Shown: positions 24,318-55,873 of the stretch, piece after piece
How the letters are laid out: every line of letters starts with the position of its first letter
How positions within the stretch are numbered: position 1 is the stretch's first letter
DNA from: Pelagibacterium halotolerans B2
GTDB taxonomy: Bacteria; Pseudomonadota; Alphaproteobacteria; Rhizobiales; Devosiaceae
NCBI RefSeq assembly: GCF_000230555.1
Contig: NC_016078.1
Location: forward strand, 1,178,001 to 1,242,000
DNA length: 64,000 nucleotides
Reading direction: 5' to 3'
Made by a program: the position numbers and the translations under genes
Notes under the pieces: model-generated
What the model was told of the DNA's origin: nothing
Seen by the model: the letters and a program-made list of their open reading frames with translations, nothing else
Database searches by the model: none

Positions 24318-26117
24318 TCATCGGGACTGCAAGGACACGTCGAGCCTTTCGACCCTGAAGATCGTGTTGCGGGGATGGTACTGTCCCGAAAGGCGTTCGG
24401 CGAGGTAGTCGGCGGTTTGCCGCAGATAGGTGTCCTCGTTCTCGTGAAGACCCTCTATGCTGTTCAAGGTGATGTCTGGGTAAAGCGGTAGCCAGGTCAG
24501 AGCGTCGATGGCTTGAAGGATCACACGGGGTTCATCATGCGTCTCGACGACCTCCGTGAGCACCCGAACCCATTTTTCAGGGTCCGCATGCCCTAGCGCT
24601 TCGGCGATGGGAATACGAACCTGGATATCGGCTTCTTTTTCAAATGCGGTCTCTAGGCCGTCGGGCACGGCGTGGCCGTCGATAACCAGCATCAGGATGC
24701 CCTTGGCCGCCCAGTGGCGCATAATCGGGGATGAATGGCCGAGAAAACCCATGAGTTTTCCGACGTTTTCGGGCTTTCGCTCGATGGCCATGCCCGCCAC
24801 CGCCATGATATCGGCGAGCGGATAAAGCACGTCGTCCTGGCTCGCCTCCCACGTCTCGAGCGGGTGATGCTCTGGAATAAAGCCGGTGTCGCGAATAGCG
24901 ATCATGTGCGCGTCGAGCGCAGTTCTGTGTGCATCGAGAACGCCGGCATGGTCCGGATCGTCGACCAGGTTGACCGTGGCGTCGGGGTCGACCTCCATAT
25001 CGTAGAGTTCTTCGGCCGGCTTTGTCTGCCAAAAGCGGTCTTGCAGCGGATCGAGCTTGCCCTCGTTTCTGGCGATCTCATAGTCCTGATAGTGGACGCC
25101 CAGCCATTCATAGGCGACGTATTGGCCAAGTATCCTGTGGGGATTGTAGTTGCGAATATAACGGTAGCGCTTCGACCGGGCCGTGCGGGAAAGATCGTAG
25201 CGCTCACCCATGCGATCGCGTCCGCCGAAGATATACTCGCGCTCCACGCGGTCGGGGCCAAGGAAGGGCTCGCCACCGACGCCATCCGGCCGCGACATTC
25301 CCGCTGCAGCGCAGAATGTGACGAAGAGATCGACCAGCGATACCGGTGTATCGACATGTGTGCCGGGTGCGATGGGTAACAGATGCCGCCACTTCTCCGG
25401 TACGCGAACGATGAGCGGTACACGCATGCCTTCGTCATAGAGATATCGCTTGGACCGAGGCAGCGTCGAGCCATGATCCGAGAAATAAAACACAATGGTA
25501 TCGTCGGTGAGGCCGTCCTCGTCGAGTTCATCGAGCCGCGCGCCAAGCTCTCCATCCATAAGCGCGATGGCATTATAGTGCCGTGCGAGGCTTTGGCGCA
25601 TGCCTGGCGTATCGGGCAGATAGCTCGGCAGGGTCACGTCTTCAGGGGCGATACCGCCCGGCTGTTCCTTAAAGGCACTCGATTCATGAGTTGTCATGCT
25701 GTTGAAGACAGCGAGAAAAGGCCCGTCCGCGGGCCTGTTGCGCCAATGAGCGGTATTGCTCGTTTCATCCCAGATTTCCTTGGGTTTGACGTCGCAATTG
25801 TAGTGGGTCTTGAAGTTGTTGGTGCAGTAATAGCCCGCGGCACGCATGACTTGGGGGTAGGTCGTAAAACTCTTTGGCAGTTTTGCGACGGTTTGCATAT
25901 GTTGCGCCCGTGGTGCGCTCTCGGCGTGACGGCCAGTGAGAATGGCAAACCGGGAGGGGGCGCAGACCGGCGAGGTACAGTTGGCGACGTCAAAGACGAC
26001 CCCCGATCGACCCAGCACATCGAGATTGGGCGTCCTGGCAATCGGATCTCCATACGCGCCCAGACGGGGCGGGCAATCCTCGCTCACGATGCACAAGATA
26101 TTGGGGCGGTCGCGCAT
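24318..26117 (-). CDS. Type I sulfatase with C-terminal HEAT-like extension
   Basis: A 599-residue sulfatase. The N-terminus has the metal-site pattern NILCIVSEDCPPRLG, and the formylglycine motif is CAPSR at residues 52-56 (C52), followed by ILTGRH; a DHG motif occurs in FYFSDHGSTLPRSK. After the catalytic domain, about the last 140 residues are helical with repeat-like segments (IMRHWAAKGILML, VRIPIAEALGH, RVILQAIDALTWLPL) resembling HEAT repeats, seen in some heparan N-sulfatase-like proteins. No signal peptide is visible. It is divergent from the peptide-type binding protein at 26375 with a LysR box between them. The substrate is unknown. Confidence 0.93.
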   Translation of the reverse strand: MRDRPNILCIVSEDCPPRLGAYGDPIARTPNLDVLGRSGVVFDVANCTSPVCAPSRFAILTGRHAESAPRAQHMQTVAKLPKSFTTYPQVMRAAGYYCTNNFKTHYNCDVKPKEIWDETSNTAHWRNRPADGPFLAVFNSMTTHESSAFKEQPGGIAPEDVTLPSYLPDTPGMRQSLARHYNAIALMDGELGARLDELDEDGLTDDTIVFYFSDHGSTLPRSKRYLYDEGMRVPLIVRVPEKWRHLLPIAPGTHVDTPVSLVDLFVTFCAAAGMSRPDGVGGEPFLGPDRVEREYIFGGRDRMGERYDLSRTARSKRYRYIRNYNPHRILGQYVAYEWLGVHYQDYEIARNEGKLDPLQDRFWQTKPAEELYDMEVDPDATVNLVDDPDHAGVLDAHRTALDAHMIAIRDTGFIPEHHPLETWEASQDDVLYPLADIMAVAGMAIERKPENVGKLMGFLGHSSPIMRHWAAKGILMLVIDGHAVPDGLETAFEKEADIQVRIPIAEALGHADPEKWVRVLTEVVETHDEPRVILQAIDALTWLPLYPDITLNSIEGLHENEDTYLRQTADYLAERLSGQYHPRNTIFRVERLDVSLQSR

Positions 26118-26234
26118 GGTGTCCTCCTCGATGGCGTATCCTCACCTTCCCGCGTCAATATCACCGATGCGCCCACAACAGGATTGCCAAAAGCTGCACG
26201 AGATATAACGGCGGCGCATCGCTCCCTAGATTCG

Positions 26235-26257
26235 ACCGATGCGTTCTGCTGATCGGT
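26235..26257. promoter_or_regulatory. LysR-type operator (ACCGAT-N11-ATCGGT), box 2
   Basis: ACCGAT (26235-26240) and ATCGGT (26252-26257) flank exactly 11 bases, giving T-N11-A. It lies between the divergent sulfatase and binding-protein genes. Ten bases after the core ATCGG comes the AATTGCATTTCT element, exactly as at 43862-43904. Confidence 0.6.
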
Positions 26258-26266
26258 AGGCGTAAT

Positions 26267-26288
26267 AATTGCATTTCTCGTTGATCGC
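26267..26288 (+). promoter_or_regulatory. Conserved element AATTGCATTTCT-NN-TTGAT, copy 1
   Basis: This 22-base element matches 43893-43914 at 19 positions and has the same 10-base distance from a LysR box. It probably marks the activation site/promoter region of the binding-protein gene at 26375. Confidence 0.6.
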
Positions 26289-26374
26289 GGCCGGTGATAG
26301 GGGATCGGTATGCGGAAGTGGAGGAGCTTCCGAAAGCAGTCTCGGGCTCCGGCCCGGCATTTGGGAGGATTTCT

Positions 26375-27877
26375 ATGCGCAAGACCTTGATCGCACTGGC
26401 GGCCGTATTGGCGGCGTCGGTCGCAATGCCTGCGGCAGCACAAATTGCCAATGATGACGATACGCTGGCGTTGGCCGGGCTTCTGGACAACAACAGCTTC
26501 GACCGCGCGCAGCTTATGATCGCCAACCAGATTCAATATTGGCAGCCGGTGTTTGATACGCTGCTGGTCCAGGCTCCCGACGGCAGCATCGAGCCGAACC
26601 TTGCTACTGAATATTCCTATAACGAGAGCAACAGCGTTCTCTCCCTGACGCTGCGTGAAGGCATTTCCTTTACCGATGGAACGCCTTTCGACGCTGAAGC
26701 GGTAAAGGCCAACCTCGAATATCTGGCCATCGGCGGCGGGCAGAACAGTTTCATGGCGCAGTCGATCAGCCAGATCGAAATTGTATCGCCAACCGAGGTG
26801 ACGCTGCATCTGGGAGAGCCCGATCCGAGCCTTCTGCAAAATCTGTCGTCCGTGGGCGGCGCTATGGCGAGCCCCGCCAATCTCGGCGTGGAAGGGTCTG
26901 CCAACAATCCGATCGGGTCGGGCCCCTATATCTACGACGAGGCCGCTTCGGTCGGTGGTCGTCAATACGTCTATAACCGCAATCCTGACTACTGGAATGC
27001 CGATCAATATCCCTTCGAACGTGTCACGATCACGCCGATCAACGATCTGGTGGCGCGGCTCAATGCCATCAAATCGGGGCAGGTCGATGCGGGGGCGGGT
27101 GAGGCCAGCACAGTCGCCGACGCTCAGGCGAACAACCTCGACACGCACGCCAACCCCGTAAACTGGATGGGGCTGACCATCGCCGACCGCGGGGGCGAGA
27201 TCGTGCCGGCCCTGGCCGACGTTCGCGTCCGCCAAGCCATCAACATGGCATTCGACTCCGCCGCGATTCTGGAATTCCTGCAGCTTGGCTATGGCCGTCT
27301 GACCGACCAGATATTCCCCGATACCGCTGCATCCTACCGCCAGGAACTGGACGCGGTCTATGACTATGATCCGGAAGGTGCGCGGGCACTTATCGCCGAG
27401 GCCGGGTATCCCGACGGGTTCACCGTCAACATGCCCGAGCTCTCCGGTTTCGCAAATCTCAATCCTGTCGTGGCCCAGCAACTGGCCGAAATCGGTATCA
27501 CCGTCGAGTGGACCACCATCGCGCCCAACGCAACGATCCCCGAGCTCCGCTCGGGCCGCTATCCGATCTTCCTGCTGCCGTTCGGATACCAGGGGGACTG
27601 GGCGGAACTCACCAAGTTCGCCCTTCCGGGTTCACCCTGGAACCCGGTGGGCTACGAGGATCCTGAGCTTCTGGCAATGATCGAAGAGGCCCAATACGCC
27701 GTTGGCGATGCCCAGGACGCGAAATATCAGGAGATCAACACCTATCTGGTCGACAACGCCTGGTTTGCGCCCTGGTACCGCCCGGACCAGATTTATCACA
27801 CCAATGGAGCCGTGGACGTTGCGGTTCAGGCGGGCAACGCCGTGCCCTTCATTCGCAACTACACTCGGCAGCAATAA
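26375..27877 (+). CDS. Family 5 solute-binding protein (oligopeptide/dipeptide ABC importer)
   Basis: A 500-residue DppA/OppA-type periplasmic binding protein. A signal peptide ends near residue 22 (PAAA|QI). Family landmarks are LSLTLREGISFTDGTPFDAE, NPIGSGPYIY, YNRNPDYW and RQAINMAFD. ATG 26375 follows TTGGGAGGA; a longer in-frame start is rejected because it lacks the signal peptide. No permease lies beside it; the Dpp-type membrane and ATPase genes at 30032-33557 lack their own binding protein and are the likely partner. Dpp-type receptors also bind oligosaccharides and glycoconjugates, which would suit the sulfatases here. Confidence 0.92.
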   Translation: MRKTLIALAAVLAASVAMPAAAQIANDDDTLALAGLLDNNSFDRAQLMIANQIQYWQPVFDTLLVQAPDGSIEPNLATEYSYNESNSVLSLTLREGISFTDGTPFDAEAVKANLEYLAIGGGQNSFMAQSISQIEIVSPTEVTLHLGEPDPSLLQNLSSVGGAMASPANLGVEGSANNPIGSGPYIYDEAASVGGRQYVYNRNPDYWNADQYPFERVTITPINDLVARLNAIKSGQVDAGAGEASTVADAQANNLDTHANPVNWMGLTIADRGGEIVPALADVRVRQAINMAFDSAAILEFLQLGYGRLTDQIFPDTAASYRQELDAVYDYDPEGARALIAEAGYPDGFTVNMPELSGFANLNPVVAQQLAEIGITVEWTTIAPNATIPELRSGRYPIFLLPFGYQGDWAELTKFALPGSPWNPVGYEDPELLAMIEEAQYAVGDAQDAKYQEINTYLVDNAWFAPWYRPDQIYHTNGAVDVAVQAGNAVPFIRNYTRQQ

Positions 27878-27913
27878 GCACTCCCGCGTCCACCTCCCGG
27901 CGCGGATATGGGC

Positions 27914-27937
27914 GGGCGGTCGGGTTCCCGGCCGCCC
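27914..27937 (+). terminator. Stem-loop after the binding-protein gene
   Basis: GGGCGGTCGGG (27914-27924) pairs with CCCGGCCGCCC (27927-27937), with one G-U and some opening at the tip. It is GC-rich without a following T-run; probably mRNA-stabilising or a partial terminator before the esterase gene. Confidence 0.5.
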
Positions 27938-27961
27938 ACTTCCTTTGGACCGGACTTGGCA

Positions 27962-28900
27962 ATGACGATCAATGAACGGCGTCAGGCAGTGATGAACAAG
28001 GAGCTCGAGATTTGTCTCGAGCGGGTTGTATCGAGGTCGGACGGCAGCCGGCTCTGGCCCGAGCTCTATTTCGCCCAGCCAATGGGGTTTCGAGCGCTCA
28101 CGCTCAATCTTGCGGTGCCTAACCGTCCCGGCCCAGCCCCGGTTCTTGTCTATATTCATGGCGGCGGTTGGATGTTCGGGCACCCCAATGTCCAGCACCC
28201 CAACCTTGCGGCCATGAACATTTTCGACGCGCTGCACGCCGAGGGCTACGCTGTAGCACGCATTTCCTATCGCTTGAGTGGCGAGGGCCGCTTTCCCATG
28301 CAATTGCACGATTGCAAGGCGGCCATTCGCTACCTTCGCAAGAACGCAGCCCTGTTCGGCATCGATGAGCGGCGCATCGCCGTGCTCGGGGAAAGCGCCG
28401 GCGGACACCTTGCCATGTTGCTCGGGCTTGAGACACCTCCCGAATTTGAAGGCACTGTGGGGGTCGAGGGGTATTCGAGCCGGGTCCATGCAGTGATCGA
28501 CTGGTACGGGATAACCAACTTCCGGTCTCTAGACGCCCAGCGGCTCGCCAATAGCCCGTTCGTGCACGATGCGGCGGACTCGGCGTCGACGCACCTGTTG
28601 GGTGGGGCGATTTCCGCGCGGCCCGAAGCGGCGCGAGACGCATCTCCGCTGACCTGGGTTTCAAAAAACGCAGCGCCATGCCTTATCCAGCACGGAACCG
28701 GCGACATCGTTGTGCCGCCGGGGCAGGGCGACGAATACTTTGCCGCGCTCGGGGCGGCCGGCGTTCCTGCCGAGATCATGCGGATTGAGGGGGCCGACCA
28801 TTGTTTCGTGGGAGCCGATACGCGCCCCATCGCCGACAAGGTCATCTCTTTTCTGAACGGCCATCTCCAGGCGGCGGGCGGAATGGCTGGCGGCGCTTAG
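27962..28900 (+). CDS. Alpha/beta hydrolase, esterase of the HGGGW/BD-FAE type
   Basis: A 312-residue esterase. The oxyanion motif HGGGW is at residues 66-70, the nucleophile elbow GESAG has S145, and the acid/base are probably in HGTGDIVVPP and GADHCF. No signal peptide is seen. Similar proteins deacylate or deacetylate sugars or act on carboxylesters and formamides. The start at ATG 27962 is uncertain, as the Shine-Dalgarno is weak and another ATG is at 27992. It follows the binding protein and may remove acyl groups from the imported substrate. It converges with the LysR gene, with a four-base overlap at the 3' ends. Confidence 0.87.
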   Translation: MTINERRQAVMNKELEICLERVVSRSDGSRLWPELYFAQPMGFRALTLNLAVPNRPGPAPVLVYIHGGGWMFGHPNVQHPNLAAMNIFDALHAEGYAVARISYRLSGEGRFPMQLHDCKAAIRYLRKNAALFGIDERRIAVLGESAGGHLAMLLGLETPPEFEGTVGVEGYSSRVHAVIDWYGITNFRSLDAQRLANSPFVHDAADSASTHLLGGAISARPEAARDASPLTWVSKNAAPCLIQHGTGDIVVPPGQGDEYFAALGAAGVPAEIMRIEGADHCFVGADTRPIADKVISFLNGHLQAAGGMAGGA

Positions 28901-29847
28901 GCCGCTCCAGCGGTCTCCAGGCCTTTGGCGGTAAAGACATTATGGCTAAGCTCGACAAGGGTCTGGATCGGTTCCCATTGCGACAATTCCTCGCGATGGA
29001 CGATCCCCACATCGGCGCGGCGGGGATGGACCGTCACCGGCAAGGGTACAATACGCGGTGCTTGCGCGGAGATTACCGCGAACTCGGGCAACAGGCAGAG
29101 ATTGTCGCTCTGTTGCAGCATCGTCAGCGTGGTCAGAAGGTTCTGGCACAACATCCGGACGTCGGCATCCTTGCCCAGCCGCTCATAAATCATGTGCTGC
29201 GTTATTTCTCCATAGATGGGCCACTCGGAATAGACGATCCACGGGTAGTCGAGAAGGGCGGCAGGCCGGATGGTTCCATATCGGTCGACGTTGCCAAAGA
29301 TCGGATGACCTTCGCGAACCATCACCTCATTTGTGATTTCGGTCAGCTTGTGTCGTACGAGCCTGTCGTCGGAAATTTCGCCGGCGACCCCACCCATTAC
29401 CCCGCTGAAAGCGACATCGAGCCGTCCCTCGCGCAGATCGGTGATTGTTCCTCCATAGGTCAGGGGCACCAGCTCGAAGATCAGCCAGGGAAAGCGTCTC
29501 TGCATTTCGACAAAGACCGGGGAAAGTATGCCCGATCGCCAAAGCGGTCCCGCGCCGATCCGCATGCGCATCTTGTTTTCCGTGGTGCCCGCCGTGAGTT
29601 CATGCTCGGCAATGTCCCAATATCGTTCGATCCTGGTCGAGACCGCCAAGACCCGTTCCCCGAACGCGGTCGCAACAACCCCGCGTGCGTGTCGCTCGAC
29701 GAGTTGCTGTCCGAAGTGAGCTTCGAGCTGCGCCAATGACCGCGAAAGGGCCGGCTGGGTCAGGTTGAGCTTTTCGGACGCCCGCCTGAGACTGCCTTCT
29801 TCGAGGATGGTTCTGAGGCGAAACAGATGGGTGATCTGGTCGAGCAT
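28897..29847 (-). CDS. LysR-family transcriptional regulator
   Basis: A 316-residue LysR-type regulator. The helix-turn-helix region (about residues 4-64) reads LRTILEEGSLRRASEKLNLT then QPALSRSLAQLEAHFG; the remainder is the effector-binding domain. ATG 29847 follows GGAGGAG (29864-29858, minus strand). A GCGAT-N11-ATCGG box overlaps that ribosome site, as for the LysR at 2436, suggesting autorepression. It is divergent from the Dpp-type operon at 29971-33557 and the sulfatase/glycosidase genes that follow, which it probably controls. Confidence 0.93.
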   Translation of the reverse strand: MLDQITHLFRLRTILEEGSLRRASEKLNLTQPALSRSLAQLEAHFGQQLVERHARGVVATAFGERVLAVSTRIERYWDIAEHELTAGTTENKMRMRIGAGPLWRSGILSPVFVEMQRRFPWLIFELVPLTYGGTITDLREGRLDVAFSGVMGGVAGEISDDRLVRHKLTEITNEVMVREGHPIFGNVDRYGTIRPAALLDYPWIVYSEWPIYGEITQHMIYERLGKDADVRMLCQNLLTTLTMLQQSDNLCLLPEFAVISAQAPRIVPLPVTVHPRRADVGIVHREELSQWEPIQTLVELSHNVFTAKGLETAGAA

Positions 29848-29850
29848 TTA

Positions 29851-29871
29851 GCGATAACTCCTCCTTATCGG
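29851..29871. promoter_or_regulatory. LysR-type operator (GCGAT-N11-ATCGG), box 3
   Basis: GCGAT (29851-29855), 11 bases, ATCGG (29867-29871), immediately upstream of the LysR start and containing its Shine-Dalgarno. It matches box 1 in architecture, and an ATT triplet occurs 16 bases downstream as in the other boxes. Confidence 0.62.
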
Positions 29872-29917
29872 GCATGCCTATTTTTTCATTATTCATGCAT
29901 CGACGCAATTGCTATCT

Positions 29918-29937
29918 AATTTCCACGTGCCCAAAAA
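29918..29937 (+). repeat. Conserved leader element AATTTC-NN-CGTGCCCAAAAA, copy 1
   Basis: A 20-base sequence matching 44128-44147 at 18 positions. Here it is 34 bases upstream of the short ORF that leads the Dpp-type operon; there it is just upstream of the third binding-protein gene. It may be shared leader or regulatory sequence, or a remnant of duplication. Confidence 0.5.
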
Positions 29938-29970
29938 ACCCAATTCAAGGGGGCATAGAGGAGGAGCAAT

Positions 29971-30039
29971 ATGTCGAGCGTCCGGCGAATGGCCGCTATC
30001 GGGCTGGCCCGCACCAATCCGGCGGCCTTCCATGCTTAG
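29971..30039 (+). CDS. Short leader ORF (22 residues) overlapping the permease start
   Basis: ATG 29971 is preceded by a very strong GAGGAGGAG. The 22-residue reading frame (MSSVRRMAAIGLARTNPAAFHA begins and ends it in two halves: MSSVRRMAAIG, LARTNPAAFHA) stops at TAG 30037-30039, overlapping the permease ATG at 30032. The permease has no good ribosome site of its own, so it is probably translated by coupling. It could be a leader peptide or the remnant of a deleted first gene, such as a binding protein, although it lacks a signal-peptide pattern. Confidence 0.5.
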   Translation: MSSVRRMAAIGLARTNPAAFHA

Positions 30040-30973
30040 CTATCTGATCAGGCGAATCGGGTCCGGTGTCGTTCTTCTCGCCATCGTGGCCACGATCACG
30101 TTCGTGATGTTGTTTGGCGCCACCGAAAACGTCGCGCAGAACATTCTCGGTGAGAACGCCACCGACGAGCAGATTGTTGCGCTCGAGCAAAGGCTCGGCC
30201 TCGATCGTCCGTTGCTGGCCCAATACGGAACCTGGCTCTCCGGGGCGGTCACCGGTGACCTCGGCACGTCATGGCTCCAGAGCGAACGCGTTTCGACGAT
30301 CCTTTCTCACCGGGTTCCGGTCACGCTCTCCATGGTCTCGATCGCCATCGTAGTCATAGCCGTCGTTTCGGCCGTGCTGGGAATTGTGGCGGCGGTGCGC
30401 GGAGGCTGGGCCGACAAAACGATTCAGGTCCTCAGTATCGTTGGCTTTTCGATGCCCAATTTCTGGCTCGGACTGATCCTGGTTGTCTTCTTTGCGTTAA
30501 CGCTTCGCTGGTTCCCGGCGACAGGCTACGTTTCCTTTTTTTCGTCCCCGGTCGGGTGGATATCGTCTCTGACGCTGCCCGTCGCCGCGATCGTTCTTTC
30601 CGGCATTGCGTCTGCGTCGCAACAGATTCGCGGGGCCGTGATTGACGTGCTCAAGCAAGATTATGTCCGCACCTTGCGTGCCCGGGGGATCAGCCCCAAA
30701 TCCGTGCTCATTCGCCACGCGCTGCGCAATGCCTTGCCGGCAGCATTGACCGTTCTGTCGGTACAGTTCATCGCGCTGCTCGGTGGCGCGGCGATTATCG
30801 AGCGCGTGTTTGCAATTCCCGGGCTCGGCTCGCTTACCGTACAGGCCTCGCTGTCGGGCGACATACCCGTGGTCATGGGTGTGGTCGTCACAGCTATTGT
30901 CATCGTGGTCGTCGTCAACGTTGTGATCGACATCATCCACGCCTGGGTCAACCCGAAGGTGAGGCTGTCATGA
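30032..30973 (+). CDS. Dpp-type ABC transporter permease (DppB-like)
   Basis: A 313-residue inner-membrane permease with the family start MLSYLIRRIGSGVVLL and about six membrane segments. Landmarks are LGLDRPLLAQYGTWL, GDLGTSW and the EAA-type loop KQDYVRTLRARGISPKSVL. ATG 30032 fits the family N-terminus; an in-frame ATG at 29909 would add 41 non-family residues. It overlaps the fused permease/ATPase gene by four bases. It lacks an adjacent binding-protein gene; that at 26375 is the probable receptor. Confidence 0.93.
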   Translation: MLSYLIRRIGSGVVLLAIVATITFVMLFGATENVAQNILGENATDEQIVALEQRLGLDRPLLAQYGTWLSGAVTGDLGTSWLQSERVSTILSHRVPVTLSMVSIAIVVIAVVSAVLGIVAAVRGGWADKTIQVLSIVGFSMPNFWLGLILVVFFALTLRWFPATGYVSFFSSPVGWISSLTLPVAAIVLSGIASASQQIRGAVIDVLKQDYVRTLRARGISPKSVLIRHALRNALPAALTVLSVQFIALLGGAAIIERVFAIPGLGSLTVQASLSGDIPVVMGVVVTAIVIVVVVNVVIDIIHAWVNPKVRLS

Positions 30974-33557: not shown

Positions 33558-33559
33558 CT

Positions 33560-35326: not shown

Positions 35327-35369
35327 ACGGGCCGATCATCCGGATTTATCGAACAGAGATAAGACCATC

Positions 35370-36929: not shown

Positions 36930-36955
36930 CCAATCCCTGGAAACCGGTTGAGATC

Positions 36956-40371: not shown

Positions 40372-40381
40372 AAAGACTGTG

Positions 40382-45676: not shown

Positions 45677-45678
45677 CG

Positions 45679-46626: not shown

Positions 46627-47496
46627 ATGAGCCAGCAAATCTCCAACAAAATCGCTAAATTCGGTCAGCTCAATCCGACCGCGGAACGCTATCTCGGCGC
46701 GCTCTTTACGACAAAAGGCATGTTCTCGGTCACCCTCATCGTCGTGCTGGGCGGACTGGCGCTCGCTGCGCCGCTGCTGTTTCCCGAGGGCTATGACGTT
46801 CAGACCCGGGATTCTCTGCTCCCGCCCAGTTTTGCGCATCCGTTCGGTACCGATGAATTGGGGCGCGACATATTCGTGCGCGCCGTGTTCGGATTGCGGG
46901 TCGATCTGTCTCTGATCTTTACCGCCGTGGTGGCCTGTATGGCGATCGGTACGGTTCTGGGTCTGTTGGGCGCGGTCTCGCAGTTTCTGGGGACGTTCAT
47001 CCAGCGCGTTCTCGATATCATCGCCGGATTTCCCGGCCTGATTTTGGGAATATGCATCGTCATCGTTGTGGGACCCGGCTGGACGGCCCTGGCCATCGCA
47101 ATCACCATAGCCGGCCTGCCGGGCTTCGGGCGTCTATCGCGCGCCGTGCTTCTGGCCCAGTTGCAGCGCGAATACGTCATAGCCGCGCAGACGCTGGGGG
47201 TGAGCCGCTGGACGATCATGATGCGGCACATCCTGCCCAATGCCGTCGAGCCCGTTCTGGTTCAGGCATCGATTTTCGTTGTGGCCGCCATCTTCATTGA
47301 AGCCGGACTGAGCATTGTCGGGCTCGGTCTCCAGCCGCCCGAACCTTCTATCGGCATTCTGCTCAACCAGGGCATGCGGTACATCACGCGCGCCCCATTC
47401 TACCTCGTTGGCCCGATGGTCGTCCTGATGCTGCTGGCGCTCTCATTCGCCATGCTTGCCGATGCGCTCAACCAGGTCGGGAGACGCAACCGATGA
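46627..47496 (+). CDS. Dpp-type ABC transporter permease (DppC-like)
   Basis: A 289-residue inner-membrane permease. It starts directly after the DppB-like stop. Landmarks are HPFGTDELGRDIFVRAVFG (periplasmic/TM1 region), the EAA loop REYVIAAQTLGVSRWTIM followed by MRHILPNAVEP, and the family ending GDALNQ-like LADALNQVGRR. It overlaps the fused ATPase gene by four bases (ATGA). Confidence 0.93.
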   Translation: MSQQISNKIAKFGQLNPTAERYLGALFTTKGMFSVTLIVVLGGLALAAPLLFPEGYDVQTRDSLLPPSFAHPFGTDELGRDIFVRAVFGLRVDLSLIFTAVVACMAIGTVLGLLGAVSQFLGTFIQRVLDIIAGFPGLILGICIVIVVGPGWTALAIAITIAGLPGFGRLSRAVLLAQLQREYVIAAQTLGVSRWTIMMRHILPNAVEPVLVQASIFVVAAIFIEAGLSIVGLGLQPPEPSIGILLNQGMRYITRAPFYLVGPMVVLMLLALSFAMLADALNQVGRRNR

Positions 47497-49574
47497 ATGC
47501 GGAAATGAATCAACAGCGCAAAGAGAATGTCCTCACCGTAGAGAATCTGACCACCACCTTCACCGTGGCCAAACGCAATGTCGACGTTGTCAGAGATGTC
47601 AGCTTTACGGTTGGACAGGGGCGGGTCATGGGGCTGGTCGGCGAAAGCGGGTCGGGCAAATCGGTAACCGCTCGCTCCATACTTCGCCTGCTGCGCAAGC
47701 CCGGTCGGGTAACCGCGGGACGCGTGTTGCTCAACGGGATCAACCTGCTCGATCTGCCGGAAGGGGATATGCGGGCCGTACGGGGTCGGGACATCGCAAT
47801 GGTGTTTCAGGATCCCCAATCGGCTCTGAACCCGGTCATGCGGGTCGGCGACCAGATTACCGAAGCTCTGCTTGTCCACGGCGTCGACCAGAGCAAGGCG
47901 CGTGAACGCGCTAAGGAATTGCTGGCACAGGTCCGCATTCCCGATGTCGAGCGGGCTATTGACCAGTACCCGCATGAATTTTCGGGCGGCATGCGCCAGC
48001 GTGTGGTCATCGCCATAGCGCTTGCCAACAAGCCAAGGCTCCTGATCGCCGATGAGCCCACCACGGCGCTCGACGTGACGATTCAGGCGCAAATCCTTCG
48101 CCTCCTGGTCGATCTGCGCGAGGAGCTTGGGGTCGCTATCATCCTGATTACCCACGATATGGGTGTGGTCGCCGAACTGTGCGACGACCTGGCGGTGATG
48201 TATGGCGGCCGCATCGTGGAAAAAGGCTCGGTCGCTCGGGTGCTCAAGCACCCGACCCATCCCTATACGGCCGCACTGCTGCGCGCGGTGCCCCGGCTCG
48301 ACAGCGAGGAGCACGAGGCGCTGCCGGCAATTCCCGGCCAGCCTCCCATTCCCGTGCAACTGCCGCCGGGCTGCTCGTTTCAACCGCGGTGCTCGAAATG
48401 CATCGATATCTGCGACAAGCAGGTTCCGGCGCTCGAAGAGATCGAGCCGGGGCAACATTCGGCCTGCTGGGTCGCCCAGCGGGGTGAACGCGACCTCGCG
48501 CCTCCCAGGCCCACCTCGCGTTCGCGTATCAAGGCATCGCGGGCCAGTGCCGTGCCCGTTCTCAAAATTACCGATCTGCGCACCGACGTGGCCGATCGCA
48601 AATCGCGGCTCTTCAGCCGGCACAAGCCCGTTTACGCCGTCGATGGCATCTCCCTCGAAATCTATCCGGGGCAGACCTATGGCTTGGTCGGAGAATCGGG
48701 CTGCGGCAAGTCCAGCCTCTCCCGCACCATTGTGGGCATTCACGCCGCCAGCAGCGGTTCGATAGAGGTAGCCGGGCGCGATGTCACGGCAATGACCGCG
48801 GAAGACCGGCGCCATGTGACATCGAGCGTGCAGTATGTTTTCCAGGATCCCTCCGCCGCTCTCAATCCTCGGCGAACGATCGGCCAGTCGATAGAGGAAG
48901 CGCTCGTCGTTGCCGGACATACCGGACAAGAGGCCGACAAGAGGGCAAGCGGGCTGATGGAGCGGGTAGGGCTGTCGCCGCAATTGCTCCGGCGATACCC
49001 CTATGAAATTTCGGGCGGACAACGCCAGCGCGTGGGCATCGCACGCGCCCTGGCCGTCGATCCGAAAGTGCTCGTTCTCGACGAGCCGGTATCGGCGCTT
49101 GATGTTTCCATTCAGGCCCAGATCATCAATCTGCTGGACGAGCTACGCAACGATCTGGGGTTGGCCTATCTTTTCATTGCCCACGATCTTTCCGTGGTCA
49201 AACACATCAGCGACCGTGTCGCCGTGATGTATCTGGGCAGGATTGTTGAAGCCGGAACAACCGATGAGGTTTATGGCAATCCGCGCCATCCCTATACGCA
49301 GGCCCTGCTTTCGGCCACTCCCGAACCCGACGTGGATCGCGACCGAAGCCACCGCATCTATCTTTCGGGAGACATGCCCAGCCCGGCCAGTCCGCCCAGC
49401 GGGTGCCGCTTCCGCACGCGCTGCCCGGTAGGGCCGCGCTTTATCCCCGAGCGAACGATCTGCATTTCCCAATCGCCCAAACTCGAACCGGCGCTCTCGG
49501 GCCAGAAATGTGCCTGCCACTTCCGGAACGATCCCGCTCGAATCAACGTCCGGGCCGATCCAGCGCTGGCCTGA
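47493..49574 (+). CDS. Double ABC ATP-binding protein (DppD-DppF fusion)
   Basis: A 693-residue fusion of two ATPases. First half: Walker A GESGSGKS at 50-57, signature FSGGMRQR at 163-170, Walker B LLIADEPTTALD at 183-194, and a cysteine-rich extension CSFQPRCSKCIDIC near 294-307. Second half: Walker A GESGCGKS at 400-407, signature ISGGQRQRVGIARAL, Walker [13 protein letters not shown], and a second cysteine-bearing tail. It replaces the separate DppD and DppF subunits. Fused forms are common for this transporter class. It is the last importer gene before the sulfatase block. Confidence 0.94.
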   Translation: MNAEMNQQRKENVLTVENLTTTFTVAKRNVDVVRDVSFTVGQGRVMGLVGESGSGKSVTARSILRLLRKPGRVTAGRVLLNGINLLDLPEGDMRAVRGRDIAMVFQDPQSALNPVMRVGDQITEALLVHGVDQSKARERAKELLAQVRIPDVERAIDQYPHEFSGGMRQRVVIAIALANKPRLLIADEPTTALDVTIQAQILRLLVDLREELGVAIILITHDMGVVAELCDDLAVMYGGRIVEKGSVARVLKHPTHPYTAALLRAVPRLDSEEHEALPAIPGQPPIPVQLPPGCSFQPRCSKCIDICDKQVPALEEIEPGQHSACWVAQRGERDLAPPRPTSRSRIKASRASAVPVLKITDLRTDVADRKSRLFSRHKPVYAVDGISLEIYPGQTYGLVGESGCGKSSLSRTIVGIHAASSGSIEVAGRDVTAMTAEDRRHVTSSVQYVFQDPSAALNPRRTIGQSIEEALVVAGHTGQEADKRASGLMERVGLSPQLLRRYPYEISGGQRQRVGIARALAVDPKVLVLDEPVSALDVSIQAQIINLLDELRNDLGLAYLFIAHDLSVVKHISDRVAVMYLGRIVEAGTTDEVYGNPRHPYTQALLSATPEPDVDRDRSHRIYLSGDMPSPASPPSGCRFRTRCPVGPRFIPERTICISQSPKLEPALSGQKCACHFRNDPARINVRADPALA

Positions 49575-49582
49575 TCCAAAAA

Positions 49583-49606
49583 TGCGGGCCGTTTTCGCGG
49601 CCCGCA
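49583..49606 (+). terminator. Stem-loop between importer and sulfatase block
   Basis: TGCGGGCCG (49583-49591), loop TTTTCG, CGGCCCGCA (49598-49606) form a perfect 9-bp stem. The TTTTC loop is like the hairpin at 6357. No T-run follows; it may be a processing site or a partial terminator lowering sulfatase expression. Confidence 0.5.
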
Positions 49607-49639
49607 ACAAGACTGCGACAACCTATCCTGGAGCCGGCT

Positions 49640-51496
49640 ATGCGGGCCATCGTGCTGATGTTTGACAGCCTCAATCGCCACTTTCTCCCGGCCTATGGCG
49701 CCAGGGGACTCGACCTTCCCAATTTTGAGCGCCTGGCCGCACGGGCAACCACGATGTCCCGTTGCTACGCGGGTTCGATGCCCTGCATGCCGGCGCGCCG
49801 GGAGCTCCATACAGGGCGCTATAATTTTCTGCATCGCGGCTGGGGGCCGCTCGAACCGTTCGACGATTCCGTTCCGGAAATTCTGAAAAAATCCGGCGTC
49901 TATACTCATCTGGTCACCGATCATCAGCACTATTGGGAGGACGGCGGCGCCACCTATCACTCCCGCTATTCTTCCTTTGAGTTTTTTCGCGGCCAGGAAG
50001 GCGATCCCTGGAAAGGGCAGGTGGCAGACCCCGAAATCCCCGAGACCTTGAGTTGGCGCACGGGCGAGGTATGGCGGCAGGACTGGATCAATCGCCGGCA
50101 TTTCGAAAAGACCGGACTGTCGTCCCAAACCCAGACCGTCGATGCCGGACTTGAGTTCATCGACACCAATCGCGCCGACGACAACTGGCTTCTCCAGATC
50201 GAATGCTTTGATCCTCACGAGCCCTTTGTCTCATCGCCCGAGCATCGCAAGCGGGTCGGCGATAACTATGGCGGTTCTCATTTCGACTGGCCCGACTATC
50301 GCCCCGTTCTCGAAGACGAGAACACGCTCGATCATATCCGGAAAGGTTACAGCGCGCTGCTGACCATGTGCGACGACAGCCTGGGCCGAATCCTCGATCG
50401 CATGGACGCGTACCGCATGTGGGAGGATACGGTCCTGATCGTCTGCACCGATCACGGCTTTCTGCTCGGCGAGCACGAATGGTACGGCAAGAACGTCCAG
50501 CCCTGGTACGAGGAAAATATCCATACCCCGCTCTTTATTTGCGATCCGCTCGCAAAGAGGGCAGGGCAGGCCCATTCGGGTCTGGTCCAGACCATCGATC
50601 TCGCCGCCACCTTCCTCGATATTTTCGGGCTCGAACCGACCGGTGACATGCAGGGTCGGTCCATTTTGCCCCTGATACGCGAAGAAACGCAGGCCATCCG
50701 CAAGACGGCCCTGTTCGGCATTTTTGGCGGGCATGTGAGCATTACAGACGGACGGTACGTCTATATGCGGGCCGCGGCTGACCCGTCCAACAGGCCGCTC
50801 GAGGAATACACCCTCATGCCCACGCGCATGAAAAATCGCTATTCGGTCGCCGATCTTGCCGAGACCGAACTTGTTCCCGCCTTCTCCTTCACCAAGGGTC
50901 TGCGCACGCTGCGGACAAGGGGCCTCGCTTTCGGAAATCCTTTTCACTTCGGCTCGCTGCTTTACGATCTCGAAAGCGATCCGGGACAGAAATCGCCAAT
51001 CGACGACCCTGATCTCGAATTGCGAATGGCCGGCCTTCTGGTCGCGATGATGCGCGAAAACGATGCTCCGGAAAGCCAGTATGTCCGCCTGGGGCTGCCC
51101 ATGACGGGCGCGGTCGGACCGGAGCACCTTCTGGTCGAAAAGCAATGGCCCCAGGTCATGGCTTCGCTGGATCGCGATTGGAGGGCCGCGCCCCGACAGA
51201 CCTTCGGCCCGGCAGCCGAACTGACGCTTACCGACATTTTTGCGAATGCGGAAATGCGCGCCCGTGTCGGAGAGGCATTCGGAGCGCAGTTGCTCAACGG
51301 CCTCGTCGGACGCTTCGGTCACCTGAGCCTTTGGCACATCTCGGTAATGTCACCGGCCATGACGCCGGACACGCTGCGTGTCCTTGATGCAGAGCTGGCG
51401 CGGTCAGTTAGCACACCCGCCCGGCAGCACTGGAGCGCGTCCAGCAAAAGTGGAAACGGTTTTGCGGTTCGGACGCGCGACGAAACAACAACTTAG
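49640..51496 (+). CDS. Type I sulfatase, CMPARR subfamily with C-terminal helical domain
   Basis: A 618-residue sulfatase, close paralogue of 33560. CMPAR is at residues 49-53 (C49), followed by RELHTGRYNFLHRGWGP; IVCTDHGFLLGEHEW supplies the DHG segment. No signal peptide (MRAIVLMFDS). The C-terminal extension (about 490-618) includes LTLTDIFANAEMRARV and a basic, low-complexity tail. ATG 49640 follows TGGAG; an in-frame extension into the ATPase gene is rejected. It heads four sulfatase genes in a row after the third Dpp-type importer. Confidence 0.94.
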   Translation: MRAIVLMFDSLNRHFLPAYGARGLDLPNFERLAARATTMSRCYAGSMPCMPARRELHTGRYNFLHRGWGPLEPFDDSVPEILKKSGVYTHLVTDHQHYWEDGGATYHSRYSSFEFFRGQEGDPWKGQVADPEIPETLSWRTGEVWRQDWINRRHFEKTGLSSQTQTVDAGLEFIDTNRADDNWLLQIECFDPHEPFVSSPEHRKRVGDNYGGSHFDWPDYRPVLEDENTLDHIRKGYSALLTMCDDSLGRILDRMDAYRMWEDTVLIVCTDHGFLLGEHEWYGKNVQPWYEENIHTPLFICDPLAKRAGQAHSGLVQTIDLAATFLDIFGLEPTGDMQGRSILPLIREETQAIRKTALFGIFGGHVSITDGRYVYMRAAADPSNRPLEEYTLMPTRMKNRYSVADLAETELVPAFSFTKGLRTLRTRGLAFGNPFHFGSLLYDLESDPGQKSPIDDPDLELRMAGLLVAMMRENDAPESQYVRLGLPMTGAVGPEHLLVEKQWPQVMASLDRDWRAAPRQTFGPAAELTLTDIFANAEMRARVGEAFGAQLLNGLVGRFGHLSLWHISVMSPAMTPDTLRVLDAELARSVSTPARQHWSASSKSGNGFAVRTRDETTT

Positions 51497-51549
51497 AGGA
51501 TTTTCGCGATTCGAAGAAAAGCGGAAATGCTCTAGGACGAGGCAAGAAA

Positions 51550-52983
51550 ATGCAGCCCAATATTCTTTTCATCTTTCCCGATCAATTGCGCTGGGACTGG
51601 ATCGAGCCTCTGACCGATTTGGCCGTTCGGACCCCAAACGTCAGATCCCTGGCGGATCGGGGGACGGTGTTTTCCAATGCATGGACACCGTCTCCCATCT
51701 GTGCGCCCGCTCGCGCCTGCATGGCCATGGGCACAAATTACGATCGCTCGCCCGTCCGTCATAACAACCATAACATGCCGGCCGGATCCGATACGGTTTA
51801 CCGCAGGCTTGCCGAGGCCGGCTATGCGGTATCGACGGTGGGAAAGCTCGATTTGCTGAAGGGCTTCATGGATTGGGGCCCCGATGGCCAGCACCGGGTG
51901 AATGGGGATTGCCGCCTGCACGATCTCGGTTTCACGCGCGGGCTCGACAATGCCGGCAAGCATGATGCGCTCTGGGCGCGCTTCAAGGGCGTGCGCGAAC
52001 CCTATATGGACCATCTGGCATCCCGCGGGCTCGATCAGATCCACATCGAGGATTTCAAGCGCCGCAACGATGCCAATCTCAAGGTCCCGGTCGGAGAGAC
52101 CATGAAGGGTGGCCTTGAAATTCCCTCGGCCTACGGCAACACGGACCTTTCCCCGCTGCCCGAGGATGCCTATTGCGACAACTGGATCGGCCGCAACGGG
52201 GTCGATGAACTCAACGCTTTGCTGGCGGAGGGGCGGCCCTGGTTCCTTACGGTCAACTTCGCCGGGCCGCACGAACCGCTCGATGTCACCGCATCCATGC
52301 GCGAAAGCGTTAAGGATCGGCAGTTCCCCATGCCCGGGCGCCACGACGGTTTGCACACCGACCTCCATCAGACCGTGCGCCAGAACTACGCCGCCATGGT
52401 CGAGTTGATCGACGGCTGGGTCGGACGCTATGTGGAAATCCTTGAACGGGCAGGGGCGCTTGAAAACACGATCATCGTCTTTGCCTCCGATCACGGCGAG
52501 ATGCTGGGCGATCACAACCTGTGGGCCAAATCGGTTCCTTTCGAGGCCTCGGTTCGCGTGCCGCTGGTCATGGCCGGTCCGGGGTTCGAACCTTCCGCCG
52601 CCCCGGTCGCCGCGCCTGTCTCCCTGCTCGACGTGATGACCACGTTCCTCAATTATGGAGCGTGCTCAACCGAGGGTATGGACGGCTATTCGCTCCGCCC
52701 CACCCTTGAGAGGGGGGAGGCGCCCGAGCGCGGGCTGGTCTTTTCCGGGCTTGGAAACTGGCGTGCCGTTGGCGATGGGCGTTTCAAGCTGGTGGCCGGG
52801 TTCGATGGCAGCCTGCACACCCAGCAGATCCAGTTCGCCATTCTGGACCCCGCCATGCTCGACGCCGCCAAACTTTACGACCTCGACAACGACCCGTTGG
52901 AAGAGACCGACATTTCCGAAGCCGAGCCGGCCGTCCGCCAGCGCCTTCTCACCGCGCTTGCCGCCGATCTCGAAGCGGTCTGA
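51550..52983 (+). CDS. Type I sulfatase (CAPAR type)
   Basis: A 477-residue sulfatase. The N-terminus MQPNILFIFPDQLRWDW supplies the first metal segment; the formylglycine motif is CAPAR at residues 51-55 (C51). The second metal segment is FASDHGEMLGDHNLW. A long insert follows the first domain and the C-terminus carries KLYDLDNDPLEETD, a common family ending. No signal peptide. It is paralogous to 54443 (shared FPDQ, TPSPxCAPAR, DHGEMLGD and EASVRVP segments) and may act on a related sulfate ester. Confidence 0.93.
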   Translation: MQPNILFIFPDQLRWDWIEPLTDLAVRTPNVRSLADRGTVFSNAWTPSPICAPARACMAMGTNYDRSPVRHNNHNMPAGSDTVYRRLAEAGYAVSTVGKLDLLKGFMDWGPDGQHRVNGDCRLHDLGFTRGLDNAGKHDALWARFKGVREPYMDHLASRGLDQIHIEDFKRRNDANLKVPVGETMKGGLEIPSAYGNTDLSPLPEDAYCDNWIGRNGVDELNALLAEGRPWFLTVNFAGPHEPLDVTASMRESVKDRQFPMPGRHDGLHTDLHQTVRQNYAAMVELIDGWVGRYVEILERAGALENTIIVFASDHGEMLGDHNLWAKSVPFEASVRVPLVMAGPGFEPSAAPVAAPVSLLDVMTTFLNYGACSTEGMDGYSLRPTLERGEAPERGLVFSGLGNWRAVGDGRFKLVAGFDGSLHTQQIQFAILDPAMLDAAKLYDLDNDPLEETDISEAEPAVRQRLLTALAADLEAV

Positions 52984-53002
52984 CCCATACCAGGAGGGGC
53001 CC

Positions 53003-54419
53003 ATGGCACCCAATATCGTCCTCATAACCACAGACCAGCAGCGGGGGGATTGCCTCGGTGTGGAGGGGCACCCTGTGCTCGATACACCCTATCTCGACCA
53101 GATCGCATCCCAGGGGGCTCGCTTTTCGCGTGCCTACAGTGCGTGCCCGGTCTGCATCCCGGCGCGCCGCACCCTGATGAGCGGGGCCAGGCCCGCGCGC
53201 CACGGCGTGACTATGAACTACGATACGCCTCTCACCCTGCCGACGCTGCCGGGCGAGTTGGCCAGGGCAGGCTATCAGACGCACCTGGCCGGCAAGCTTC
53301 ATCTCCATCCGGCGCGGAAGCTCTATGGCTTCAACTCCGCCGATTGGGCCGACAGCCCGGCCCAATACCGCCTCAACCGCGTTAGCAACGACTATCAGAG
53401 GTTCCTGATTGAACATGGCCAACACGGCCCCGATCTCTCCTATGCCAATGGCGCGAACGGAAATGGTTGGGTGTCACGGCCCTGGCACATGGATGAACGC
53501 TTCCACTACACAACCTGGGCGGCAGAATGCGCATTGCGGTTTCTCGAACGCCGCGACCCGACTGTCCCGTTTTTCCTCAATCTCTCGATCTTTGCGCCTC
53601 ACGCGCCCTTCACCCCGCCGGCCTATTATTTCGAAAAATACATGGACATGGATTTGCCCGAGCCCGTGGTGGGTGCCTGGGCCCGCATCTATGACGGTGC
53701 GCAACGCGGCCACGACGTCACTGCGTGGCGCGTCTCGCTCAAGCGTCAGGCGCAGCGCGAAATGATGGCCGGGTATTTCGGCTCAATCGAACATGCCGAT
53801 CACCAGATCGGCCGTGTGCTCAAACATCTGCCACGAGATACGGCCATTCTGTTCGCCTCCGATCATGGCGAAATGCTGGGCGATCATCAATGGACCCGCA
53901 AGCGCTCGGCCTATGAGGGCTCGGCCCGCGTGCCGTTTCTCGTCAAGCTTCCCAAATCGTTCGGCATCGAGCCCGGCCAGGTGCGCACCGAGCTTGTCGA
54001 GTTGATGGACGTCATGCCGACCCTGCTCGATATGGCAGGGGCGCCCGTTGTTGCGCGGTGAAACCGACGGCTGGCGTCGGCATTTGCACGGGGAATGCGC
54101 CCGGGTCGAAACAATGAACTCGGGCATGCAGTTCGTGACCGATAAAAGCCTGAAATATATCCGCTATCCCGGCACCGGACTCGAGCACGCCTTCGATCTG
54201 GCAAACGACCCCGACGAGATGACCAATCTCATAGGCGACAGCGAATATGAGCCGCGTATCGAGGCCCTGCGCCAGATCATGATCCGCGAACTCGAGGGAC
54301 GCCCCGAAGGTTTCGTGGTCGATGGCCGGCTTGCCGTCACCGGTGGCTTTGCGCCGGTTCATCTGCCCGGATTCGAGTGCCGCGATGAACCGGGCGATCT
54401 CAAGAACGCCAACCGCTAA
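53003..54419 (+). pseudogene. Type I sulfatase, frameshifted in the C-terminal third
   Basis: The first frame has a normal start (ATG 53003 after AGGAGGGG), MAPNIVLITTDQQRGD, the formylglycine motif CIPAR at residues 51-55 and FASDHGEMLGDHQW, but stops at 54059-54061 just after LLDMAGAPV. The expected continuation (LLRGETDGWRRHLHGECA, KSLKYIRYPGTGLEHAFDLANDP) is in another frame up to 54419. In related sulfatases about a dozen residues, including a DGRSL-type segment, separate these parts; they are missing here, so a short deletion with frameshift is likely. The shortened product keeps the metal and formylglycine residues but loses the C-terminal subdomain, so activity is doubtful. Confidence 0.85.
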
Positions 54420-54442
54420 CCACCTTTTTCAAAGGAGCCGTC

Positions 54443-55873
54443 ATGCGCCCCAACATCCTGATGCTGTTTCCCGACCAGTGGCGCGCGGATTGGATCGGCG
54501 CTTTGGGCGGTCTGCCTCTGCGCACGCCCAATATCGATGCTCTGCTCGCCCGCGGCACAGGCTTTGCCAGGGCATGGACGCCGAGCCCGCTCTGTGCTCC
54601 GGCGCGCTCGTGCTTTGCCACCGGCCGCGCCTATGGACGCGCGCCGGTGCGCAGCAATTTCGATGACAATCCCCTCGACACGCCCACCTTTTACCGCGCG
54701 CTGCGCGAGGCGGGTTATCAGGTGGCCAATACGGGCAAATCGGATCTGCTCAAGCATGGCCATTCCTGGGGACCCGACGGCCGCCATGTCGTTGACGGTG
54801 AAGATCGTCTGGCCGCCTTGGGATTCAGCCACGGCTTCGACAGTGCCGGCAAGAAAGCGGCCGAAGTTGCGCTCAAGAGGGGGTTCGCCGACCCCTATAC
54901 CGAAATGCTCAAGGCCCGGGGGCTGGAGGGACGGTTTCTCGACGATTATGCCGGTCGCGGTGTCGTGCGGGGCACGCTCTTGCAACAATGGCTCGACGGC
55001 AGCCTTGGAACGCCTCCCGATGCCTATGCCAATGTCGATCCCCAGGACTTGCCCGACGACGCCTACAACGACAATTTTGTCGGCCAGCGCACGCTCGATG
55101 AACTCAAGGGGTTCGATCCCAACAGCCCATGGTTCATGATCGTGAATTTCCCCGGCCCCCATGAGCCGATGGACGTTACGCCCTCAATGGCCGAAGCGTG
55201 GGAAGGCGTCGAGTTCCCGCTTCCCCGCATGCGCAACACCGAAGACGCCGAGCTCCAGCAGGATATCCGCCGCCGCTATGCGGCCATGATCGAAAACATC
55301 GATCGCTGGATTGGCCGCTACATCGCCCACCTCGAAGAAACCGGGCAATTGGACAATACCGTGATCGTCTTTGCCTCCGATCACGGCGAAATGCTGGGCG
55401 ACCGCAATCTCTGGAAAAAGCAGGTGCCGTTCGAGGCGTCGGTCCGGGTGCCGATGATCCTTGCCGGCCCGGGCATAAAGCGGCGCGCCATGGTCGATGA
55501 GGGGCCGGCCAATCTGCTCGATCTTCCGCCCACCTTTCTGGCACTCGCTCAAACCGACCCCCTGGACGGCATGGAGGGATACAGCCTTCTAGACTATCTG
55601 GATGGTTCGGCACCCTATCCCCGCGCGTCGAGCGAATCCGGACTGGGCGCCTGGCGTGCGGCCACCGATGGGCGGTTCAAAATCATCGTCGGCCTCAACG
55701 AGCGGATCAATCAGGAAATGCTTCAGACCGAGACCTACGATCCGGCCTGCCTGCGTTCGGGTGTTCTTTATGACCTCGCCGACGATCCCGACGAAACCCG
55801 GTCCCTCTGGGACGACCGCCCCGATGTCCGCGACAGCCTTATTGCCCACATTGCCCGGGTCTGGCCCTCATAG
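54443..55873 (+). CDS. Type I sulfatase (CAPAR type)
   Basis: A 476-residue sulfatase. MRPNILMLFPDQWRADW forms the first metal segment, CAPAR at residues 51-55 (C51) the formylglycine motif, and FASDHGEMLGDRNLW the second metal segment. The ending LYDLADDPDETRSL is typical. No signal peptide. It is the last gene of the sulfatase run; its stop codon lies within the left arm of a 14-bp inverted repeat that probably ends the transcript. Closest relative in the window is 51550. Confidence 0.93.
   Translation: MRPNILMLFPDQWRADWIGALGGLPLRTPNIDALLARGTGFARAWTPSPLCAPARSCFATGRAYGRAPVRSNFDDNPLDTPTFYRALREAGYQVANTGKSDLLKHGHSWGPDGRHVVDGEDRLAALGFSHGFDSAGKKAAEVALKRGFADPYTEMLKARGLEGRFLDDYAGRGVVRGTLLQQWLDGSLGTPPDAYANVDPQDLPDDAYNDNFVGQRTLDELKGFDPNSPWFMIVNFPGPHEPMDVTPSMAEAWEGVEFPLPRMRNTEDAELQQDIRRRYAAMIENIDRWIGRYIAHLEETGQLDNTVIVFASDHGEMLGDRNLWKKQVPFEASVRVPMILAGPGIKRRAMVDEGPANLLDLPPTFLALAQTDPLDGMEGYSLLDYLDGSAPYPRASSESGLGAWRAATDGRFKIIVGLNERINQEMLQTETYDPACLRSGVLYDLADDPDETRSLWDDRPDVRDSLIAHIARVWPS

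Follow-up and report, generated by a model that had tools for sequence, protein, structure and literature searches.

The sulfatase locus at positions 24318-55873 of the DNA analysed here, from the marine bacterium Pelagibacterium halotolerans B2 (the window: 64,000 nucleotides, positions 1178001-1242000 on a 3.94-Mb contig; Table 1) appears to encode a system in which sulfated compounds are imported and then desulfated in the cytosol. This is the best-supported reading of the locus, and we put its probability at about 0.8. A fuller scheme, in which cytosolic cleavage and export of the released sulfate complete the pathway, is likely too, if held with a little less assurance. What the DNA shows directly is which genes are present, how the operon is laid out, that export signals are lacking and that the arrangement is conserved. 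The sea and the soil are rich in sulfated sugars, and the degraders described to date, as far as we know, mostly desulfate them outside the cytosol. A lineage that carries out this step in the cytosol has one sulfate to dispose of for each group removed, and to our knowledge bacterial sulfate export is poorly known.

A first-pass annotation of the window had listed eight CxPxR sulfatases, a true formylglycine-generating enzyme (FGE) and two GH3 enzymes, none with a recognisable signal peptide, and these assignments hold. PF00884 and the C-x-P-x-R motif are present in all eight sulfatases (seven in the interval, one at 3437), which by fold and motif are predicted to be formylglycine-dependent (S1) enzymes. 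All eight are real genes, and the one at 53003 (sulfatase F) is frameshifted: it ends at 54061, with the shift near 54040-54060 and the missing C-terminus readable in another frame to 54419, which may reflect a real mutation or a sequencing error. The FGE has PF03781, and its best solved relative is 2q17 (presumably the Streptomyces FGE); C280 and C285, which we take to be the catalytic pair, are invariant in 7/7 aligned FGEs. It is the sole full-length PF03781 match in the genome, a second match being partial and within a 666-aa frame. Pfam domains confirm both GH3 enzymes.

The sulfatase fold starts almost at once in these proteins, PF00884 beginning at residue 3-7 in all eight (about residue 5 for the gene at 24318; the gene at 49640 was read from 49643, one codon late), and none of their upstream in-frame extensions (up to 81 residues shown) looked signal-peptide-like by eye. 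A simple hydropathy maximum over 12 residues, used here in place of SignalP, gave at most 1.3 for twelve proteins (the eight sulfatases, FGE, both GH3 enzymes and the esterase) against 1.88-2.71 for six exported controls. A locus of exported polysaccharide sulfatases in the style of Bacteroidota was considered and rejected, as 0/8 sulfatases carry a signal peptide. Genome-wide, PF00884 has 12 matches, two of them in one gene, giving 11 sulfatase genes; the three outside the window, near 3.065-3.070 Mb, likewise lie beside importers and have no signal peptide. That second cluster (L001, G000:C1:3055001-3075000; L and G numbers are our labels for loci and genomes) holds, by eye, the three signal-less sulfatases with sugar-type ATP-binding cassette (ABC) and Dpp-type importer genes and DapA-like proteins, and no FGE. 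Among the FGE loci of the family Devosiaceae, 59 sulfatase rows were found and 56 could be judged; the highest hydropathy among the 56 is 1.78, short of 2.0, and in 20 rows the domain is preceded by fewer than 12 residues. At FGE loci outside the family, 15 of the 49 rows that could be judged reach 2.0. Since FGE in bacteria acts before export, its presence in the cytosol does not by itself set the system apart.

The layout of the genes links these enzymes to import. The core, 29909-43855, consists of ten same-strand genes separated by 2-112 bp or overlapping by 4 bp, and comprises a Dpp-type importer, two sulfatases, a GH3 enzyme, the FGE, a second GH3 enzyme, a TSUP transporter and a PF09608 protein. 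Binding protein 1 and the esterase lie 5' of the core, the intervening ~1 kb holding an opposite-strand LysR gene. Importer, maturase and signal-less sulfatases thus occur in one cluster. A further set follows at 44162-55873, made up of a second Dpp-type importer and four more sulfatases. Three ABC importers had been credited to the interval; only two complete ones lie within it, the third being outside, where there are two sugar-type ABC importers (~4998-9322 and 59321-63544) and a tripartite ATP-independent periplasmic (TRAP) system.

This arrangement is conserved. In a survey of 136 family genomes, seeded with the window's own proteins (distant relatives may be missed), FGE was found in 36 at an E-value of at most 1e-40, and 36 FGE loci were fetched from 34 of the 35 other FGE genomes (G071, whose FGE sits on a 3-kb contig, was left out). 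The full order Dpp genes-sulfatase-sulfatase-GH3-FGE-TSUP-PF09608 is present in 6/36 loci (L034, L036, the near-identical L038 and L039, L041 and L044), and four variants lack GH3 or carry it elsewhere (L032, L037, L045, L063). Since gene order recurs in relatives, the clustering goes beyond chance. A TSUP gene lies near FGE in 14/36 loci, at L056 as a pair 10-11 kb away. GH3 is found in 8/14 TSUP-linked and 0/22 unlinked loci (p = 1e-4), and at least two Dpp genes on the FGE strand in 10/14 and 0/22 (p = 4e-6); because the genomes share ancestry and are not independent, these and later p-values overstate the association and serve as guides only. Unlinked loci L052, L061, L066 and L067 carry Dpp genes on the other strand.

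Relatives outside the family also point to cytosolic desulfation. The Neorhizobium petrolearium OS53 megaplasmid (NZ_CP123001.1) has the same set of genes, without TSUP and PF09608, in the same order and in one stretch, with close relatives of sulfatases A (68% identity), B and C, the short GH3 (61%), the binding protein and the FGE, as well as LysR and a Dpp importer; it differs in that an annotated anaerobic sulfatase maturase (L168:9304-10515) accompanies FGE in the same cluster. It is the ninth B-type record, the other eight having been hand-picked among 46 matching plasmid records (20 listed). In these, B-type sulfatases directly follow phosphotransferase system (PTS) IIC-IIB genes in E. 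coli (L172) and Enterobacter (L176) and a PTS gene in Serratia, stand within sugar-ABC operons in Rhizobium and Roseateles, and lie near FGE and major facilitator superfamily genes on two Streptomyces plasmids; for the Paenibacillus B-type sulfatase no importer evidently adjoins. Three FGE records, picked out of 30, combine FGE and sulfatases with tripartite tricarboxylate-type, TRAP, sugar-ABC or taurine-type transporters. None of ten B-, D- or 3437-type sulfatases in these regions has a signal peptide, and PTS and sugar-ABC neighbours speak for a small sugar substrate that enters the cytosol. The E. coli B-type gene is present in 552/5426 complete genomes. The IIC of E. coli and Enterobacter scores above the cut-off of a PTS model for an unnamed sugar and below those of ascorbate-PTS models; a sulfated ascorbate-like substrate for these PTS-sulfatase genes is a guess. 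Taken together, sequence, operon layout, conservation and ABC or PTS neighbours elsewhere lend good support to the earlier suggestion that cytoplasmic sulfatases are fed by importers.

Based on this analysis we can outline how the locus might work. The core with its 5' genes, 24318-43855, would serve the catabolism of small sulfated sugars: the periplasmic binding protein and the Dpp-type ABC importer would take the substrate in intact, and FGE from the same operon would activate sulfatases that stay in the cytosol. Sulfatases A, B and C would strip sulfate while the esterase may strip acyl groups, and the two GH3 enzymes would split the glycosidic bond, one perhaps by phosphorolysis. Accumulating sulfate would be exported by TSUP with a periplasmic, membrane-anchored PF09608 partner. 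Importer 2 and the four sulfatases at 44162-55873 might widen the substrate range and would depend on the same FGE.

The first-pass description of a 'sulfo-glycan' system goes too far. The interval holds no recognised enzyme for breaking down polymers, and its only recognised glycosidases are the two GH3 enzymes, which makes small glycosides or oligosaccharides a more fitting class of substrate than polymers. Probable substrates are a small sulfated beta-glycoside, perhaps a sulfated beta-glucoside, or a saccharide bearing N-acetylglucosamine-6-sulfate (GlcNAc-6-sulfate). The latter type, taken by itself, is possible if doubtful: the best solved relative of sulfatase C, 5g2v, is a GlcNAc-6-sulfatase (presumably S1_11). 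The short GH3 has the motif DRDQH (a His/Asp dyad) aligned with the phosphorylase 5vqd (BglX/BglP), and hence perhaps cleaves by phosphorolysis. Such a reaction would need cytosolic phosphate and yield a sugar phosphate, and so makes sense in the cytosol. A His/Asp dyad in GH3 enzymes allows phosphorylase action, according to passages of a review (PMC8950772) that do not tie BglX/BglP to sulfatases, unlike the short GH3 here.

The TSUP gene starts 112 bp after the short GH3, and the next gene overlaps it by 4 bp. The product of the latter had been called TIGR02186; it belongs to PF09608 by Pfam (230.2 bits, cut-off 24.5), whereas its TIGR02186 score of 159.8 bits does not reach the NCBI cut-off of 255.25. 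Its AlphaFold model (pLDDT 90.4, 55-row alignment) has an N-terminal helix that fits a signal peptide, an Ig-like beta-sandwich and C-terminal helices. The model is consistent with a periplasmic membrane-anchored partner of TSUP, a fit that proves nothing. Close relatives of the protein carry the genus name Pelagibacterium, which like Devosia belongs to the Devosiaceae. The literature searched, which leaves most subscription journals outside, has no paper that uses the names TIGR02186, PF09608 or Alph_Pro_TM.

PF09608 is present in 126/136 family genomes, and 10/10 copies examined away from FGE adjoin a TSUP gene; there the two form a housekeeping pair. The pair in the window is 80% (TSUP) and 48% (PF09608) identical to the housekeeping pair of the same genome. 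A second PF09608 copy is found in 15/36 FGE-positive and 0/100 FGE-negative genomes (Fisher p = 1.6e-10), second rows in G009, G033, G041 and G062 having been set aside as fragments; counting G009, the only one above the cut-off of the two FGE-negative genomes among these, gives 1/100 and p = 2.2e-9, and leaving out G122 gives p = 6e-10. G122 carries three near-identical copies of the linked type (L035, L161, L162), all near contig ends, which may be a duplication or an assembly artefact. A tree was built from 42 concatenated pairs, of which 15 were linked and 27 had been labelled unlinked beforehand (two G122 copies among them). Its linked pairs form one clade (support 100) except for G029, which sits on a long branch, and G070, which arose by very recent duplication; the two G122 copies labelled unlinked fall inside the linked clade. 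G029 and G070 look like separate recruitments, so that on this tree extra TSUP/PF09608 pairs probably joined FGE loci three times.

That TSUP exports the released sulfate is plausible from this gene context, with about even odds and weaker than the import reading. More tentatively still, TSUP and PF09608 might form a two-part sulfate efflux system, a membrane channel plus a membrane-anchored periplasmic Ig-like subunit. Duplicates of the housekeeping pair would then have joined operons of cytosolic sulfatases several times over, easing the sulfate load that comes with growth on sulfated sugars. Were this so, PF09608 would gain a first function and a sulfate exporter would be identified.

Several observations weigh against parts of this account, besides the shared ancestry noted above. 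The substrate, the order of the steps and the direction of transport are inferred; Dpp-type binding proteins often carry peptides; and the hydropathy test is a rough one, in which five leaders of twin-arginine-like type from other bacteria score only 1.55-1.75. For the export step, 22/36 family FGE loci are without TSUP, as is the N. petrolearium cluster, which shows neither TSUP nor PF09608 over the 35 kb covered; among FGE loci from beyond the family, 1/80 has a TSUP gene nearby, and the TSUP profile run over 12 annotated plasmid regions matched just a short Serratia open reading frame. The genome itself has nine TSUP genes, so that one near FGE is not striking alone. The TSUP substrates named in passages of two papers are sulfite, sulfoacetate, 3-sulfolactate and, as a proposal, sulfamate, with sulfate not among them (PMC10413263, PMC11500405). 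The Serratia match, on a Serratia entomophila plasmid (L175:10322-10642), is a short TauE/SafE-family frame a few kb from PTS-sulfatase-maturase genes.

Some of these points would also suit a pair that stands outside the pathway, as a horizontally transferred passenger or a handler of another anion. Most linked copies belong to one clade, so their linkage may be largely one event; the pathway occurs without the pair in the family loci and Neorhizobium cases just given; and the constant pairing of PF09608 with TSUP away from FGE gives the pair a role unrelated to FGE. We regard this alternative as rather unlikely, as G029 and G070 fall outside the main clade (though the first is a long branch and the second pair lies 10-11 kb from FGE), the TSUP gene is spaced as tightly as described between GH3 and PF09608, and no second copy was accepted among the 100 FGE-negative genomes.

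Sulfur scavenging offers another explanation, in which organic sulfate esters are imported mainly as a sulfate nutrient, the cell assimilates the sulfate and TSUP serves some other purpose. The Pseudomonas ats system is a parallel, import plus a cytosolic sulfatase being its layout, and the TauE protein of the acesulfame clusters discussed below is proposed, in the passages concerned, to export sulfamate rather than sulfate. However, two GH3 genes within the gene string and an esterase elsewhere in the cluster point to carbon use, eleven sulfatase genes, with three in a second cluster beside importers, are many, and TSUP presence tracks GH3 and Dpp genes; we therefore consider scavenging improbable. 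Slightly less probable again is that some of the 'sulfatases' cleave other esters, such as phosphonates, phosphodiesters or sulfamates. T-D-H-x-H is found in 3/8 (B, D and 3437), replacing the G-K-x-H/D of four of the others, and the solved relatives of B are distant, choline-sulfatases coming first (2.5e-24) and phosphonate monoester hydrolases being among the next. These three enzymes nevertheless have both CxPxR and D-H-G, and B stands beside sulfatase C and FGE in conserved order. Export by an unrecognised route, with activity in the periplasm, is a formal and very improbable alternative: we found no support for it, the sulfatase fold runs from the first residues in 8/8 and from the first beta strand in 119/120 best homologues of B (best 120 of 7998 matches), and PTS neighbours deliver substrate to the cytosol.

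The remaining features are collected in Table 1, where the permeases and ATPase of importer 2 were assigned from their translations by eye. Elsewhere in the window, 10717-23190 holds genes resembling those of aromatic-ring degradation (FAD monooxygenase, glyoxalase-fold protein, FAA hydrolase, cyclase), along with a TRAP importer by eye.

Table 1. Features of the sulfatase locus, with the eighth sulfatase of the window (window positions; E-values after Pfam or PDB matches)
Feature	Position	Strand	Remarks
Sulfatase A (S1_8-like, HEAT repeats)	24318..26117	-	PF00884 + HEAT_2; best PDB 9bba 'S1_8C sulfatase' 1.7e-66; divergent from operon
Solute-binding protein 1, exported, Dpp/Opp-type (SBP_bac_5)	26375..27877	+	PF00496 (scan from 26294); N-terminal hydropathy 2.71 (start 26375)
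BD-FAE-type carbohydrate esterase / alpha-beta hydrolase	27908..28900	+	PF20434 1.2e-56
LysR-type regulator, within cluster	28897..29847	-	PF03466/PF00126
ABC importer 1 (Dpp-type)	29909..33557	+	permease, permease-ATPase fusion, ATPase; 4-bp overlaps
Importer 1 permease	29909-30973	+	assigned from translation
Importer 1 permease-ATPase fusion	30970-32745	+	PF00528 + PF00005
Importer 1 ATPase	32742-33557	+	assigned from translation
Sulfatase B (MFDSLNR / CMPAR type)	33560..35326	+	PF00884; family without signal peptide
Sulfatase C	35370..36929	+	best PDB 5g2v 1.6e-127
GH3 beta-glucosidase-type enzyme with PA14, no signal peptide	36956..39430	+	PF00933/PF01915/PF07691; best PDB 3abz 1.3e-175
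FGE	39427..40371	+	PF03781; best PDB 2q17 1.5e-83
Short GH3, GH3 beta-glycoside phosphorylase relative	40379..42049	+	PF00933; best PDB 5vqd 2.5e-88
TSUP (TauE/SafE) membrane transporter	42162..43097	+	PF01925 1.8e-45
PF09608 (TIGR02186-like) protein	43094..43855	+	PF09608 3.6e-68; hydropathy 2.57; TSUP overlap 4 bp
ABC importer 2 (Dpp/Opp type): binding protein, two permeases, double ATPase	44162..49574	+	binding protein PF00496, exported by hydropathy
Sulfatase D, paralogue of B	49640..51496	+	PF00884; 56% identity to B
Sulfatase E	51550..52983	+	PF00884; top solved relative a choline-sulfatase, modest 2.2e-33
Sulfatase F, frameshift-truncated	53003..54061	+	PF00884; best PDB 9koq 7.5e-72
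Sulfatase G, E-like by eye	54443..55873	+	PF00884; motifs
Eighth sulfatase, T-D-H-x-H type as B and D	3437..4948	+	PF00884; adjoins sugar-type ABC importer ~4998-9322

No title or abstract in the searched literature describes this combination of genes, which is weak evidence with most subscription journals outside the search, and the novelty is lower than the first-pass annotation implied, as intracellular sulfatases and importer/sulfatase/TauE neighbourhoods are already published. In Bifidobacterium breve UCC2003, sulfatases described as intracellular permit growth on GlcNAc-6-sulfate; this is a Gram-positive organism, and the review passage concerned does not mention TSUP or PF09608 (PMC7326374). 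An accessory island of Streptococcus pneumoniae, as described in part of a report, brings together a PTS, a sulfatase, a sulfatase-modifying factor and a TauE-family protein adjoining the modifying factor (PMC3283741). It resembles our locus in uniting importer, sulfatase, maturase and TauE, and differs in using a PTS rather than an ABC importer and in that the same passages mention neither GH3 nor PF09608. A further parallel is offered by the acesulfame clusters of Bosea, Chelatococcus and Shinella, as far as passages of the two papers describe them (PMC10413263, PMC11500405). For Bosea, ABC import, a cytoplasmic sulfatase and TauE-like anion export are proposed, and the Shinella sulfatase is formylglycine-dependent with its best match from Devosia oryzisoli. 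These clusters differ in their xenobiotic substrate, in the proposed export product, sulfamate, and in the lack of any mention of a glycosidase in those passages; the Bosea enzyme is moreover of the metallo-beta-lactamase type, unlike the S1 sulfatases here. Set beside these systems, the freshest part of the present locus is the candidate role for the PF09608 family, for which the repeated occurrence of an extra TSUP/PF09608 pair at FGE loci provides a genetic handle and a first testable role.

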